In this document: piece after piece, positions 38,152-41,406 of the stretch
How positions within the stretch are numbered: the stretch's first letter is position 1
Layout: each line of letters starts with the position of its first letter
From: Halomonas stenophila
GTDB lineage: Bacteria > Pseudomonadota > Gammaproteobacteria > Pseudomonadales > Halomonadaceae
NCBI RefSeq assembly: GCF_014192275.1
Contig: NZ_JACHXR010000002.1
Coordinates: forward strand, 1-64,000
Reading direction: 5' to 3'
Length of the DNA stretch: 64,000 nt
Made by a program: the position numbers and the translations under genes
Notes under the pieces: generated by a model
Databases searched by the model: none
Told to the model about the DNA's origin: nothing
Seen by the model: the letters and a program-made list of their open reading frames with translations, nothing else

Positions 38152-38927
38152 CGGCAAGGACCCTGACCTGCCAGGTCGTCGAGGTCGAGGACCTCACCCC
38201 CGACGTCTTCCGCGTGCACCTGGAGGGCCGCCCCGAGGCCATGGCCCACGCCCCCGGCCAGTACCTCGAGATGCAGCTGGACGACGCGACCTGGGTGCCC
38301 TTCTCCATCGCCAACGCCCACGGCGGCGACGGCCGGCTCGAGCTGCATATCCAGCACTGGCCGGAGCGCAGCAACTCCGCCCGGCTGCGCGAGCTGCTGG
38401 TGGAGGCCCAACAGCTGACCCTGCGCCTGCCCGGCGGCGACTGCGTGCTGGATCCCGACAGCGAGCGCCCCCTGCTGCTGGTCGCCGCCGGGACCGGCTT
38501 CGCCCAGATGAAGGCCATCGTCGAGGCGGCCCTGCACGCCGACCCCTCGCGGCCTGTCGCGCTGTGGTGGGCCGCCCGGGAGCGCCGCGACCTCTACCTG
38601 GAGCGCCTGGCCCGGGAGTGGGCGGAGCGGCACGAGGGCGTGACCTTCCATGGCGTCAGCGAGCAGCCGCTGGAGGCCGGCTTCGATGCCGAACGGGTGA
38701 CCGGCCACCGGGGGCGGATCGACGAGGCCCTGGCCGAGCACCTCGACGACGTCTCCGCCCATGACGTCTACCTCTCCGGCTCGCCGGGCATGGTCTATGC
38801 CTGCGTCGATGTCCTGGCCTCGCTGGGGCTGGTGCCGTCCCGGGTGTTCTCCGACGTCTTCGCCTATGCGCCGCGGGACCCGCTGGTGCCGACCGTGGGC
38901 AGCCTGGTGCGCGAGCGGCAGGCATGA
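38148..38927 (+). CDS. fre: NAD(P)H-flavin reductase (Fre family)
   Basis: Ferredoxin-reductase-fold enzyme expected to reduce free FMN or riboflavin with NAD(P)H, possibly feeding FMNH2 to UbiX/UbiD. It is 259 residues, about 25 longer than E. coli Fre (233). The flavin-binding motif normally RxxS reads WVPFSIAN, so the usual Arg before P-F-S is Val. The pyridine-nucleotide motif [17 protein letters not shown] and the C-terminal [11 protein letters not shown] are intact. It is coupled to ubiD by an ATGA overlap. Confidence 0.9.
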
Positions 38928-39013
38928 GTGCCTCGCTCATCCTGATCCCCGACCCCAACCGCGACGTGACCGGGATCAGCCTGCCGGTCGATGGCGGCCG
39001 GCATCTTCGCTAG
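38924..39013 (+). pseudogene. Possible C-terminal remnant of a short-chain dehydrogenase
   Basis: A 29-codon frame opens with ATG overlapping the fre stop (ATGA). Its second half reads NRDVTGISLPVDGGRHLR, very like the C-terminal tail of SDR-family enzymes, where xxxTGxxLxVDGG is the hallmark. Nothing else of an SDR is present upstream because the fre coding region fills the space. I interpret it as the tail of a decayed SDR; it could equally be an expressed small peptide by translational coupling. Confidence 0.4.
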
Positions 39014-39054
39014 AATGCCGGACATCCTGACGACCACTCCGAGAGGAACATGAC

Positions 39055-39183
39055 ATGGCGGGACACGACGAGAACTTCAAGGACGACAGCGGCCTGCTGG
39101 CGGTCTTCCTGGGCCTGGCGGTGCTGGTGGGCATGAGCGCGCTGCCGGCGACCATCGGCTGGGTGCAACTGGCCACCGGCTGA
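39055..39183 (+). CDS. Small single-pass membrane protein
   Basis: A 42-residue ORF, MAGHDENFKDDSGLL followed by one hydrophobic helix (LAVFLGLAVLVGMSALPATI, about 15-34) and a short tail. GAGAGG lies 8 bp before ATG 39055, an excellent SD, and a TAGAAT -10-like hexamer at 39011 is correctly placed upstream. No family is recognised. The charged N-terminus and single helix suggest an inner-membrane small protein. It stands alone between fre and the aroG leader region. Confidence 0.6.
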   Translation: MAGHDENFKDDSGLLAVFLGLAVLVGMSALPATIGWVQLATG

Positions 39184-39205
39184 GCCGCCGGTGAGCACGT
39201 CGCCC

Positions 39206-39234
39206 TTGCCATCCGCCCCGCGAGACGGCAGGAT
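39206..39234 (+). promoter_or_regulatory. Weak candidate promoter for the aroG leader
   Basis: TTGCCA (39206-39211), 17-bp spacer, CAGGAT (39229-39234). The -35 is good (5/6) and the -10 poor (3/6). It would start RNA about 18 nt before the first leader ORF, as in classical attenuated operons. Confidence 0.3.
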
Positions 39235-39258
39235 GGCAGCAGACCTCAGGAGACGACC

Positions 39259-39408
39259 ATGTCATCGAGCCGACCCATGACCCCGTGCGACCCGCAGACC
39301 GCCCCCGTGGCGGTGACGGCGGCCCGTGGTCAAGGCAGCGTCGGCGGTATCGATCGCTATTGGCCGGGTGACTGGTTTAGCGCCGGCGTGCCGGCGGCCG
39401 TGTCCTGA
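39259..39408 (+). CDS. Aromatic-rich leader peptide 1 upstream of aroG
   Basis: A 49-codon ORF with a strong SD (CAGGAGA, 7 bp before ATG). The first two-thirds are Ala/Gly/Pro-rich; then comes DRYWPGDWFSAG, where codons TAT TGG (39358-39363) and TGG TTT (39373-39378) cluster Tyr, Trp, Trp and Phe. Region 1 of the attenuator (GGCGTGCC, 39385-39392) starts seven bases after the Phe codon, so a ribosome stalled there would cover it. It is interpreted as a regulatory leader peptide, not a functional protein; this is inference from layout. Confidence 0.65.
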   Translation: MSSSRPMTPCDPQTAPVAVTAARGQGSVGGIDRYWPGDWFSAGVPAAVS

Positions 39409-39500
39409 CCCAGCGCCAAGGACCACGCCGCGAGGCACGCCCGCCCAGGGTTGCCTCCGCACACAGAACCCCCGGACGGCAACCCCGCTCGGGGGTTCTG
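39385..39500 (+). promoter_or_regulatory. Candidate transcription attenuator of aroG
   Basis: Segments: GGCGTGCC (39385-39392) can pair with GGCACGCC (39434-39441); GGGTTGCC (39448-39455) can pair with GGCAACCC (39478-39485); and CAGAACCCCCG (39464-39474) pairs perfectly with CGGGGGTTCTG (39490-39500), a terminator-like 11-bp stem. GGCAACCC lies in the terminator loop, so the second pairing traps the 5' terminator arm and should be an antiterminator. No U tract follows the stem, a weakness of the model. Confidence 0.55.
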
Positions 39501-39538
39501 CATTGCAGGCCCCGCAACACGACGACAGGAGACGCCCC

Positions 39539-39703
39539 ATGACCGCACCGCATCGCGCCCACGCCGAGTTCCGCACCCCGGGACGGGACTATTACGGCTA
39601 TGGTTGGCGATTTAGCGATGCGCGGTCGGGCCAGGGCGCCACCTCCGACCGTGAGACTGCCGGTGGCATGACGACTAGCCGATGTTCCCGCTCACGGAGT
39701 TGA
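39539..39703 (+). CDS. Aromatic-rich leader peptide 2 immediately before aroG
   Basis: A 54-codon ORF starting after the attenuator hairpin, with the SD ACAGGAGA. Residues 17-26 read DYYGYGWRFS, with codons TAT TAC GGC TAT GGT TGG CGA TTT AGC (39590-39616): three Tyr, one Trp and one Phe in eight codons. The TGG(CGA)TTTAGCG stretch resembles TGGTTTAGCG of leader 1, and both SD regions are alike, suggesting duplication. The stop is 5 bp before the aroG ATG, so translation may be coupled. Overlapping stems follow the aromatic codons (39624-39667). Confidence 0.6.
   Translation: MTAPHRAHAEFRTPGRDYYGYGWRFSDARSGQGATSDRETAGGMTTSRCSRSRS
39624..39667 (+). promoter_or_regulatory. Mutually exclusive stems after the leader 2 aromatic codons
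   Basis: GGTCGG (39624-39629) pairs with CCGACC (39645-39650); alternatively GCCACC (39638-39643) pairs with GGTGGC (39662-39667). The second stem begins within the loop of the first, so only one can form. Ribosome position at the Tyr/Trp/Phe codons eight or more bases upstream could choose between them. Short stems, so this is a tentative call. Confidence 0.35.
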
Positions 39704-39708
39704 CCCCC

Positions 39709-40803
39709 ATGAACGCCCCCGTTTCCCTTGCCCGCCCTTCACTGACCGACGCGAGCGAAGGCCGTCGCGACGCCGCCAGCCACCTGCCCACCCCCGAGGC
39801 CCTGCACCGAGCGCTGCCGCTCGAGCCAGCCCTGGCCCGAGGCATCGAGGGCCAGCGCCAGGCCATCCGCGAGATCCTCGCGGGCCGCGACGACCGGTTG
39901 CTGGTGGTGGTCGGCCCCTGTTCGATCCATGACCCCGAGGCCGCCCTCGAGTATGCCCGGCGGCTGGCGGCCCTGGCCCCGCATATCGAGGATCGCATCC
40001 TGCCGGTGATGCGGGTCTACGTGGAGAAGCCACGGACCACCGTGGGCTGGAAGGGGCTGGCCTATGACCCGGACCTGGACGGCCGTGGTGACCTGGCCCG
40101 TGGCCTCGAGCTGTCACGCACGCTGATGCGCGAGATCGCCGGGCTGGGCCTGCCCGTGGCCACCGAGCTGCTGCAGCCCATGCTCGCCCCCTATCTGGAC
40201 GACCTGCTGGCCTGGGTGGCGATCGGGGCCCGCACCACCGAGTCCCAGCTGCACCGCGAGATGGCCAGCGGTCTCGAGGCCGTGGTGGGCTTCAAGAACG
40301 CCACCAGCGGCGAACTGCAGGTGGCCATCGATGCCATGCGCGCCGCGGCCCATCCCCACCAGCACTTCGCCATGGCCGCGGACGGCCGGCCGATGGTGCG
40401 CGAGACCCCGGGCAACCCGCATACCCATGTGGTGCTGCGCGGGGGGCACGGCGAGCCCAACTACCGGGCGCCCCAGGTGGTCGCCAGCCGGCGGGCCCTG
40501 GAGGCCGCGGGCCTGACGCCCCGGCTGATGGTGGATTGCAGCCATGCCAATGCGCGCAAGGACCACCGCCGCCAGAGCGAGGTGATGCTCGATGTGCTGG
40601 GCCAGCGGGTGGCCGGCGACACCGCCCTGGTCGGGCTGATGCTGGAGAGCCATATCCACGAGGGCAAGCAGCCCCTGGCCCCCGGCAAGCTGCGCTACGG
40701 GGTCTCGGTCACCGATGCCTGCATCGGCTGGGAGACCACCGAGCACCTGCTGACGACCGCGGCGGAGCGGCTGCGGGAGACGGGCGTCGACGAGCGAGCC
40801 TGA
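39709..40803 (+). CDS. aroG: 3-deoxy-7-phosphoheptulonate synthase (DAHP synthase, class I)
   Basis: Condenses phosphoenolpyruvate and erythrose 4-phosphate, the first step of the shikimate pathway. It is 364 residues from ATG 39709 (GGAG 9 bp upstream; an ATG at 39682 lacks an SD). Conserved blocks are VVGPCSIHDPEAALEYA (68-84), VYVEKPRTTVGWKG, ATELLQP, IGARTTESQ, FKNATSGE and DCSHANA. Which aromatic amino acid inhibits it cannot be told from sequence by eye. The aroG symbol denotes the class I family, not proven Phe sensitivity. It is preceded by two leader ORFs and an attenuator-like hairpin and followed by a 31-bp palindrome. Confidence 0.93.
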   Translation: MNAPVSLARPSLTDASEGRRDAASHLPTPEALHRALPLEPALARGIEGQRQAIREILAGRDDRLLVVVGPCSIHDPEAALEYARRLAALAPHIEDRILPVMRVYVEKPRTTVGWKGLAYDPDLDGRGDLARGLELSRTLMREIAGLGLPVATELLQPMLAPYLDDLLAWVAIGARTTESQLHREMASGLEAVVGFKNATSGELQVAIDAMRAAAHPHQHFAMAADGRPMVRETPGNPHTHVVLRGGHGEPNYRAPQVVASRRALEAAGLTPRLMVDCSHANARKDHRRQSEVMLDVLGQRVAGDTALVGLMLESHIHEGKQPLAPGKLRYGVSVTDACIGWETTEHLLTTAAERLRETGVDERA

Positions 40804-40841
40804 GGCGGGGCGCCCAGCGACGGCGCCGACTGTACGCAGCC

Positions 40842-40872
40842 GGACGATGCCGGGATAATCCCGGCATCGTCC
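40842..40872. promoter_or_regulatory. 31-bp near-perfect palindrome between aroG and the DUF3087 gene
   Basis: GGACGATGCCGGGAT, one central A, then ATCCCGGCATCGTCC: 15-bp perfect arms. It could be the aroG terminator (no T run) or an operator: its centre contains GATAAT, usable as a -10 for the gene at 40894, so a repressor bound there would block it. Confidence 0.5.
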
Positions 40873-40893
40873 ACCCTCCGTCAGGGCCCTCCC

Positions 40894-41406
40894 ATGTCGT
40901 TTCGCTTCGAGTCCCACGACCCCCACGCCTACCGTCGGACCTCACGCCTGGTCGGCCTGGCCATGGCCGGCCAACTGATCGTCTTCGGGCTGGTCTTCAC
41001 CCAGCTGCTCGGCACCGCCTTCACCCCCAGTCTCTGGCTCAATGCCCTGGGCGTGCTGCTCGGGCTGGGCGCCACCGGCCTGGTGCTGGCCGGACTGCGC
41101 GACCGGCCCTGGCTGGGCCCGGTGCGCTACGGCTGGCGGCTCAAGCAACGGCTCTCGACGGTGAGTGGCTACCTGCCCGCCCTGCGCCGGGGCATGGCCG
41201 ACGGGGACGAACGGGCCCTGGCGGTGCTGGCCTTCTACCACCAGGGCATGGCCCAACTGGGCGAGCTCGATGGGCGGACCCTGGACGACGATGCCGAGTT
41301 GCTGGCCGAGCGCCAGGCGCTGCGCCTGGCCCGACAGGCCCGCCGCCTGCCGGAACGGGTCGACGGCCTCGACGAGGCCGACCTCGCCGATTTCAAGCGA
41401 GGCTAG
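40894..41406 (+). CDS. DUF3087-like inner-membrane protein
   Basis: A 170-residue protein: a short hydrophilic N-terminus (SFRFESHDPHAYRRTSRLVG), two hydrophobic helices (about 21-42 and 46-67), then a cytoplasmic helical domain containing RYGWRLKQRLSTVSGYLPAL and LAVLAFYHQGMAQL. This layout and the HAYRR-type N-terminus resemble DUF3087 proteins of Gammaproteobacteria; the function is unknown. It is convergent with ppk (10 bp between stops). A large palindrome lies 21 bp before the start. Confidence 0.7.
   Translation: MSFRFESHDPHAYRRTSRLVGLAMAGQLIVFGLVFTQLLGTAFTPSLWLNALGVLLGLGATGLVLAGLRDRPWLGPVRYGWRLKQRLSTVSGYLPALRRGMADGDERALAVLAFYHQGMAQLGELDGRTLDDDAELLAERQALRLARQARRLPERVDGLDEADLADFKRG

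Follow-up and report, generated by a model that had tools for sequence, protein, structure and literature searches.

Two short reading frames precede a DAHP synthase gene

In the window (the whole stretch of 64,000 nucleotides analysed here), positions 39709–40803 encode a type I DAHP synthase, aroG (aroFGH type; PF00793, E 1.1e-78; TIGR00034, E 5.4e-130), the enzyme that opens the shikimate pathway. A second DAHP synthase, 51% identical to this copy, is also encoded in the genome, and an excerpt of PMC6435475 describes two type I-alpha DAHP synthases in P. aeruginosa. Ahead of aroG and its Shine-Dalgarno sequence (SD; GGAG, 39696–39699) come two short open reading frames (ORFs), each preceded by AGGAG, as an earlier note made from the sequence alone had pointed out. 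Leader 1 (39259–39408; ATG 39259, TGA 39406–39408) has 49 codons plus TGA (MSSSRPMTPCDPQTAPVAVTAARGQGSVGGIDRYWPGDWFSAGVPAAVS). Its C-terminal part reads ...YWPGDWFSAGVPAAVS, and the putative stall codons are TAT at 39358, TGG at 39361, TGG at 39373 and TTT at 39376. Leader 2 (39539–39703; ATG 39539, TGA 39701–39703) has 54 codons plus TGA (MTAPHRAHAEFRTPGRDYYGYGWRFSDARSGQGATSDRETAGGMTTSRCSRSRS), with an aromatic part reading ...DYYGYGWRFSDARS... and a putative stall run TAT TAC GGC TAT GGT TGG CGA TTT at 39590–39613. Both leaders, aroG and all pairing segments described below lie on the forward strand.

Neither leader matched any family in NCBIfam or Pfam. A scan of 38800–40000 gave no sigma-70 promoters and no strict terminators (threshold, five T in eight), and the sole match to the Rfam amino-acid leaders in 38800–41000 was His_leader on the opposite strand, at 18.8 bits vs. 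a gathering score of 49. Nor did any other Rfam family come close to its gathering score there. Models of the two leaders found one place only in the window's genome and no further copies, the side matches of the leader 2 model having E values of 1.39–7.55.

Conservation of the leaders among orthologous loci

We gathered 185 orthologous loci: 30 from the nearest genomes, the best 80 of 593 relatives in named genomes, 15 among the family-search matches listed, which covered the genera of higher identity, and 60 taken by coordinates. The named genomes belong to Halomonas, Vreelandella, Chromohalobacter, Billgrantia, Cobetia, Salinicola and other Halomonadaceae, and to Pseudomonas, Stutzerimonas and Halopseudomonas. 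With duplicates and short sequences removed, 171 unique upstream regions remained for counting. The signature of leader 1 and its terminator (an aromatic-rich ORF end, then a GC hairpin) was present in 165 of them and was followed by a second aromatic ORF in 133, the corresponding figures for controls shuffled in 50-nt blocks being 8/855 and 1/855. A model search for leader 1 left ten of the 185 loci without a match, among them L023, an incomplete sequence, and L043, which bears leader 1 by eye. The Pseudomonas versions are recognisable as well (leader 1, ...FYFGYWFSHWRA; leader 2, MNYATYYRYD...AWRFS). Upstream of paralogous DAHP synthase copies, neither the leader 1 signature (0/20) nor the second ORF (0/20) was found, and we rejected on this ground the idea that the signature is a general habit of DAHP synthase genes.

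Leader 1 occurs without a detected WRF (Trp-Arg-Phe) leader 2 at L197, L200–L202, L204 and L205, all of family f43, and in Salinicola at L049–L052. Given these loci with leader 1 alone, leader 1 is the more widespread part of the arrangement.

All three aromatic amino acids occur within the last 20 residues of leader 1 in 161 of 163 loci, and the frame begins with ATG or GTG behind an SD pattern in 137. Aromatic codons amount to 5.95 per 15 in frame 0 vs. 0.73 and 1.82 in the other frames (n=163), and the aromatic run changes length in frame among relatives. Frame bias and in-frame length changes together argue for leader 1 being a translated ORF. Leader 2 has an ATG or GTG start with an SD pattern in all 159 loci examined and shows a similar bias (5.77 aromatic codons per 15 in frame 0; 0.38 and 0.97 in the others; n=159). 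Its TGG-CGA-TTT is nearly invariant, the arginine of Trp-Arg-Phe being CGA in 160 of 161 unique loci and CGC in one. The stall sites of both leaders keep codons that are less used in aroG: TTT serves for 82% of the Phe residues among the last 20 codons of leader 1 (4% in aroG) and TAT for 85% of the Tyr residues (27% in aroG), and CGA, the arginine codon of leader 2, makes up 4% of the Arg codons of aroG. The aromatic content claimed for both peptides in the earlier note is thus as described, the frame bias and the signature count exceed chance, and the aromatic codons proved to be conserved in relatives, an SD pattern being present at the counts given above.

Two smaller features of the codons may be mentioned. 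Leader 1 of the window reads GDW (39370–39372) where its nearest relatives (L002, L003 and L111) read GYW, so that the stall run of the window has an Asp codon in place of one Tyr codon. A second CGA lies near the end of leader 2 (39679–39681 and equivalent positions), as CGA TGT in many Halomonas and as CGA ACA in many Pseudomonas, and recurs despite the low share of this codon in aroG.

A chain of exclusive helices after leader 1

The region 3' of the leader 1 stall codons contains four pairing segments and a hairpin. Segment A (GGCGTGCC, 39385–39392) lies just beyond the stall codons and starts, as had been noted, at the seventh base after the Phe codon. Its candidate partner, when the ribosome is upstream of A, is segment B (GAGGCACGCC, 39432–39441), by way of GGCACGCC (39434–39441). 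The TGCCTC of B may instead pair with the GAGGCA of segment C (GGGTTGCCTC, 39448–39457) in a B:C hairpin (39432–39437/39452–39457). C, in turn, may pair through GGGTTGCC (39448–39455) with segment D (GGCAACCC, 39478–39485), and this C:D helix is the proposed antiterminator. D is situated in the apex of the terminator hairpin E (39465–39499; AGAACCCCCG..CGG/CCG..CGGGGGTTCT, arms at about 39465–39479 and 39485–39499). As read from the sequences, A:B, B:C, C:D and E form one chain, in which B:C shares strands with both A:B and C:D and so links the outer pairings. The earlier note had regarded it as a weakness that its 1:2 and 2:3 pairings were merely adjacent; the B:C hairpin, which overlaps both, removes this objection.

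Covariation was assessed in an alignment (A1) of 53 Halomonadaceae sequences out of 75 non-redundant ones (of 175); 17 Pseudomonas-type sequences, in which the register of A:B differs, were omitted, and five Halomonadaceae (L048, L122, L137, L162 and L164) were dropped by hand as divergent or badly cut. In A:B, 97.6% of cells were paired and 33 had changed on both sides (26 at one pair); the figures were 95.8% and 16 (11 at one pair) for B:C, 95.5% and 14 (13 at one pair) for C:D, and 87.6% and 21 (12 at one pair) for E. The two-sided counts of each helix were matched in none of 500 shuffles, so that the stems called for in the earlier note, including the terminator-like one after leader 1, do covary. 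A single pair of A:B reads UA, CG, GU, UG, AU and GC in different species. The compensatory changes are mostly confined to one or two pairs of each helix, and the number of pairs per helix with two-sided changes was reached in 42, 94, 97 and 258 of 500 shuffles for A:B, B:C, C:D and E, respectively. As to register, C:D slid by −3 had a covariation score of 0.161 vs. 0.157 in the true register, and E slid by −1 was 90.8% paired vs. 87.6%. Both middle pairs of C:D are absent in 25 of the 38 sequences in which C is GGGTCGCC. Independent contrasts on the aroG tree, summed over 11 hand-picked varying pairs, came to about 13.4 in the same way, 0.0 in the other way and 12.6 with the partner unchanged; for single pairs such contrasts are too few for significance. 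Folding of 39373–39502 gave z=−3.07, one of 200 shuffles being as good. A further pairing, stem 0, between CGCCA and the UGGCG of the stall codons, was 97.2% pairable, the same as its shuffles, and we make no claim for it.

The window has a poor U tract (TTCTGCATTG, five T in the 10 nt after the G run). Among relatives the mean is 5.94 T in Halomonadaceae (n=108) and 8.89 in Pseudomonas-type loci (n=55), whose tract is U-rich, vs. a background of 2.07. The statement in the earlier note that no U tract follows the stem therefore needs correction. With its covarying GC stem and the T-rich tail in relatives, E has the features of an intrinsic terminator between leader 1 and aroG.

Predicted dependence of the helices on ribosome position

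The leader 1 switch was modelled by folding in 163 loci and 489 shuffled controls. The front edge of the ribosome was set 12 nt away from where the awaited codon begins, and the transcript used for B:C had its 3' end 12 nt from the start of C. B:C was predicted in 162 of the 163 loci for a ribosome waiting at the leader 1 stop and in 12 for one on the aromatic codons; in the window, the expected number of paired bases was 9.92 at the stop and 0.96 when stalled. This pattern (high at the stop, low when stalled) was found in 151/163 real vs. 139/489 shuffled sequences, a comparison to be read with the fact that trimming at the stop takes A away by construction; B:C forms in 260 of the 489 shuffled sequences when the ribosome is at the stop.

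When the transcript includes D, C:D was predicted to be higher in the stalled state in 99 of the 163 loci and lower in two. At equilibrium the window has C:D in both states (7.98 stalled vs. 7.87 at the stop), and 88 of the 163 loci retain a predicted C:D even when the ribosome has reached the stop. Once complete, E wins in every ribosome state (mean 4.60–4.93 of 5 bases). Since C:D appears in both states and completed E always wins, control by leader 1 must be kinetic, i.e. a matter of the order of events. The models thus predict a mutually exclusive antiterminator that depends on ribosome position (in the window, only as long as the transcript does not yet include D), and the predicted sign of the switch is the expected one, with shortage leading to read-through. 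In the state without a ribosome, B:C was predicted in 83 of 163 loci and amounted to 1.6 bases in the window, so that termination without translation is not predicted there. The proposal that leader 1 is a trp-type attenuator is well supported by its conserved aromatic codons, the terminator, the covarying exclusive helices and the predicted sign, and it is very probably an amino-acid-sensing on/off switch for transcription.

The leader 1 element and the small RNA P15

The original paper on the small RNA P15 is said to be that of Livny in 2006. Rfam files this RNA under RF00627 as "Gene; Pseudomonas sRNA". The family matched all seven Pseudomonas-type loci tested, at 85–136 bits, over a span running from the leader 1 aromatic codons through the terminator; the five Halomonadaceae loci tested, the window's included, gave no match at the gathering score of 70 bits. 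Judged by these matches, the leader 1 element of Pseudomonas is the RNA that has been catalogued as P15. Of 293 genomes of the order, 27 had a P15 match (14 over the cut-off), and in 26 of these 27 an aromatic-rich ORF is present and the downstream ORF reads as DAHP synthase by eye. Among 369 genomes of the class there were seven with a match (one over the cut-off). Both matches in family f207 (69.8 and 43.5 bits) come with an aromatic-rich ORF ahead of DAHP synthase.

The classification as a gene in Rfam raises the question of whether leader 1 RNA might act in trans as a small RNA, the ORF being incidental, and a terminated leader would presumably appear as a small RNA on a blot. The consistent position of the matches ahead of DAHP synthase (26 of the 27 in the order and the two of f207), each with its aromatic-rich ORF, is at odds with this, as are the frame bias and the in-frame length changes of the aromatic run, which speak for translation. 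We consider a trans-acting role very improbable, and an attenuator far better suited to these data; if so, the P15 "sRNA" belongs among the cis-regulatory leaders. As for the literature, an excerpt of PMC2375449 merely lists P15, and excerpts of PMC2965389 and PMC2864571 had nothing on DAHP synthase.

The P15 matches that do not precede DAHP synthase (L209, L240 and L241) are all weak, at 28–34 bits. One of them, L209 (G000:C5:304558-304647; 33.9 bits, E 5.4e-5), is in the window's own genome and has no aromatic ORF or DAHP synthase beside it; we take it as a chance match.

Leader 2 and its crossing helices

From just 5' of Trp-Arg-Phe, 85 leader 2 sequences of two families gave an alignment of 90 columns that needed no gaps and in which ten bases (TGGCGATTTA) are invariant. 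This alignment (A2) was made from 174 loci, 25 of which failed a regular expression designed for the pseudoknot; 13 of the remaining 98 non-redundant sequences were then dropped by hand, some for being without the element. Two helices cross each other here. Helix P, (G)CGGTCGG/CCGACCG(T) (39622–39629/39645–39652), and helix Q, GCCACC/GGTGGC (39638–39643/39662–39667), are each 96.9% paired in A2, percentages that are biased upwards by the selection with the motif expression and by hand. P has 30 cells changed on both sides, 25 of them at the outermost pair, and Q has six, two at each of three pairs, each total being matched by 0/500 shuffles. Because two slid versions of Q give more two-sided cells (8 and 14, at 40.0 and 47.1% paired), the covariation of Q is weaker evidence than that of P. 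Over six pairs of P and Q, the aroG-tree contrasts summed to 6.5 in the same way, 0.3 in the other way and 3.1 with the partner unchanged. RNAalifold picked P together with a weak invariant helix, and not Q. In the window the first loop has 8 nt, the junction 1 nt and the last loop 9–10 nt, so that, as far as sequence can tell, P and Q would have either the geometry of an H-type pseudoknot or that of two alternative helices making up a switch.

So tight an alignment, with its invariant bases and crossing helices, is also what a ligand riboswitch might look like, in which the P/Q pseudoknot would bind a metabolite and the aromatic codons would be secondary. The distribution of the element tells against it. 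Of 293 genomes of the order, 12 have P/Q: eight of the 12 genomes listed for the window's family, the other four of which lack it, and four of one genus of the P15-bearing family; P. citronellolis-type and Stutzerimonas-type loci and members of family f43 keep the aromatic WRF leader without the element. Moreover, the stretch between the 3' strands of P and Q is variable, and leader 1 would be left unexplained. We regard metabolite binding as quite improbable, and leader 2 as more probably an aromatic sensor in its own right.

The position of a possible pseudoknot shortly 3' of TTTAGC resembles the arrangement at programmed frameshift sites, where in this case leader 2 would be fused to aroG. 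Leader 2 stands in no constant frame relative to aroG (the three frames account for 78, 44 and 39 of 161 loci), and only 25 of the 161 have an aroG frame that stays open as far back as WRF. We rejected such a fusion on these grounds and give it hardly any credence.

Leader 2 and the aroG Shine-Dalgarno sequence

A third helix of this region, R (CCGTGAG/CTCACGG, 39649–39655/39691–39697), could occlude the aroG SD; it uses the 3' strand of P and so competes with that helix. In 82 Halomonadaceae the mean duplex energy of R was −12.5 kcal/mol with the sequence's own SD region, −10.3 with SD regions of other species and −9.8 with shuffled ones; two Halomonas clades gave a clear result in this test, and others, e.g. 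Chromohalobacter, a weak one. Leader ORFs located upstream of a helix able to bury the SD of the next gene are found in translational attenuators of the ermC and cat type. Leader 2 and R resemble these in that respect and differ in the aromatic codons, the crossing helices, the overlap with the SD and the lack of a clear predicted switch. In nested folds of 77 Halomonadaceae, the mean unpaired fraction of the SD was 0.26, 0.20 and 0.41 with the ribosome edge at W+12, W+24 and W+42, i.e. predicted access to the aroG SD depends little on the position of the ribosome in leader 2.

Of 99 Halomonadaceae, 86 have a leader 2 that extends across the SD of aroG, an overlap seen in none of 54 Pseudomonas-type loci. 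No terminator was recognised after leader 2. For this reason, and given the crossing helices and the SD overlap in Halomonadaceae, control at the level of aroG translation is more likely than a second attenuator and appears to be the likeliest role of leader 2. The earlier proposal of two serial attenuators accordingly stands for leader 1, and the second attenuator is not borne out.

Plain translational coupling is a simpler account of the same overlap: ribosomes leaving leader 2 would restart at aroG, and the aromatic codons would tune their flow. As such coupling would have it, 85 of 99 Halomonadaceae have the end of the leader 2 stop between −12 and +6 relative to the aroG start; in all 54 Pseudomonas-type loci it lies 37–50 nt upstream. 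Stalling would, besides, be expected to lower aroG expression under amino-acid shortage, which is the wrong direction. Coupling alone thus seems to us a somewhat unlikely explanation, although a weightier contender than metabolite binding, and we favour leader 2 as a regulatory sensor.

A model for control of the entry into the shikimate pathway

The reading that we favour, with a probability of about 0.82, is that leader 1 is a transcription attenuator sensing charged tRNAs and that leader 2 is a second translated aromatic sensor. From the ORFs, codons and helices seen in the sequences, and from the modelled direction of the leader 1 switch, we infer how the system would respond to amino acids and when read-through would take place. 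Leader 1 would sense, through the ribosome, the charged tRNAs of all three aromatic amino acids. When any of them is short, the ribosome would stall on Tyr-Trp-Pro-Gly-Asp-Trp-Phe, A:B would pair and C would be left free to pair with D in the terminator apex; E could then not close, and the polymerase would go on to transcribe leader 2 and aroG. With an ample supply of all three, the ribosome would reach the stop and cover A, so that B:C would pair and leave D unpaired by C; the terminator E would form and transcription would end near 39500. Leader 2, whose whole mode of action we likewise infer, would act on the transcripts that get past the terminator, most likely by adjusting the translation of aroG, since its end overlaps the SD and P and Q compete with the SD-burying helix R. 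A more specific version, in which the entry into the shikimate pathway of Halomonadaceae and Pseudomonas is gated twice, by the P15 attenuator and then by a pseudoknot that controls translation and is set by stalling at the aromatic and CGA codons, is offered tentatively; the odds are somewhat against it.

Attenuation by leader peptides is a classical mode of control. Its general scheme is treated in an excerpt of PMC1183508. Like the E. coli-type attenuators of the trp, pheA and his operons, leader 1 has control codons for the products of its own pathway, a terminator, exclusive helices and a predicted path from stalling to read-through. It differs from their 1:2, 2:3 and 3:4 pairings by an extra helix in the chain (A:B, B:C, C:D and E), whereby stalling permits the first hairpin instead of blocking it. 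Its codons also cover all three aromatic amino acids, it would control entry into the common pathway, at its first step, and a second aromatic leader follows.

Corynebacterium glutamicum, in which a related case has been proposed, belongs to another phylum. A predicted leader peptide with Phe-Tyr-Phe before its DAHP synthase gene aroF was put forward there as an attenuator, a single leader being named in the excerpt of PMC4046766 vs. two here. In the open-access literature we recognised no description of leader peptides before DAHP synthase genes of Pseudomonas or Halomonas, and earlier descriptions of the tandem leaders, the identity with P15, the B:C link or the crossing helices of leader 2 did not turn up. 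If the model is right, control of the first shikimate enzyme by charged tRNAs is a widespread trait of Halomonadaceae and Pseudomonas, and metabolic engineers would gain a removable block on aromatic production in these bacteria. Leader 2 would also be a natural system for the role of a conserved pseudoknot just past a stall site.

Sequences flanking the leaders and aroG

On its upstream side leader 1 is adjoined by a short ORF at 39053–39183 (MAGHDENFKDDSGLLAVFLGLAVLVG...). Several relatives share a reading of the same DNA in a different frame, which makes the region look conserved. Directly 3' of aroG, an inverted repeat (GACGATGCCGGGAT/ATCCCGGCATCGTC, 40843–40871) is probably the terminator of the gene; it gave a match to FinP at 19.7 bits, far under the cut-off. 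A DUF3087 protein (PF11286) is encoded after it at 40894–41406.
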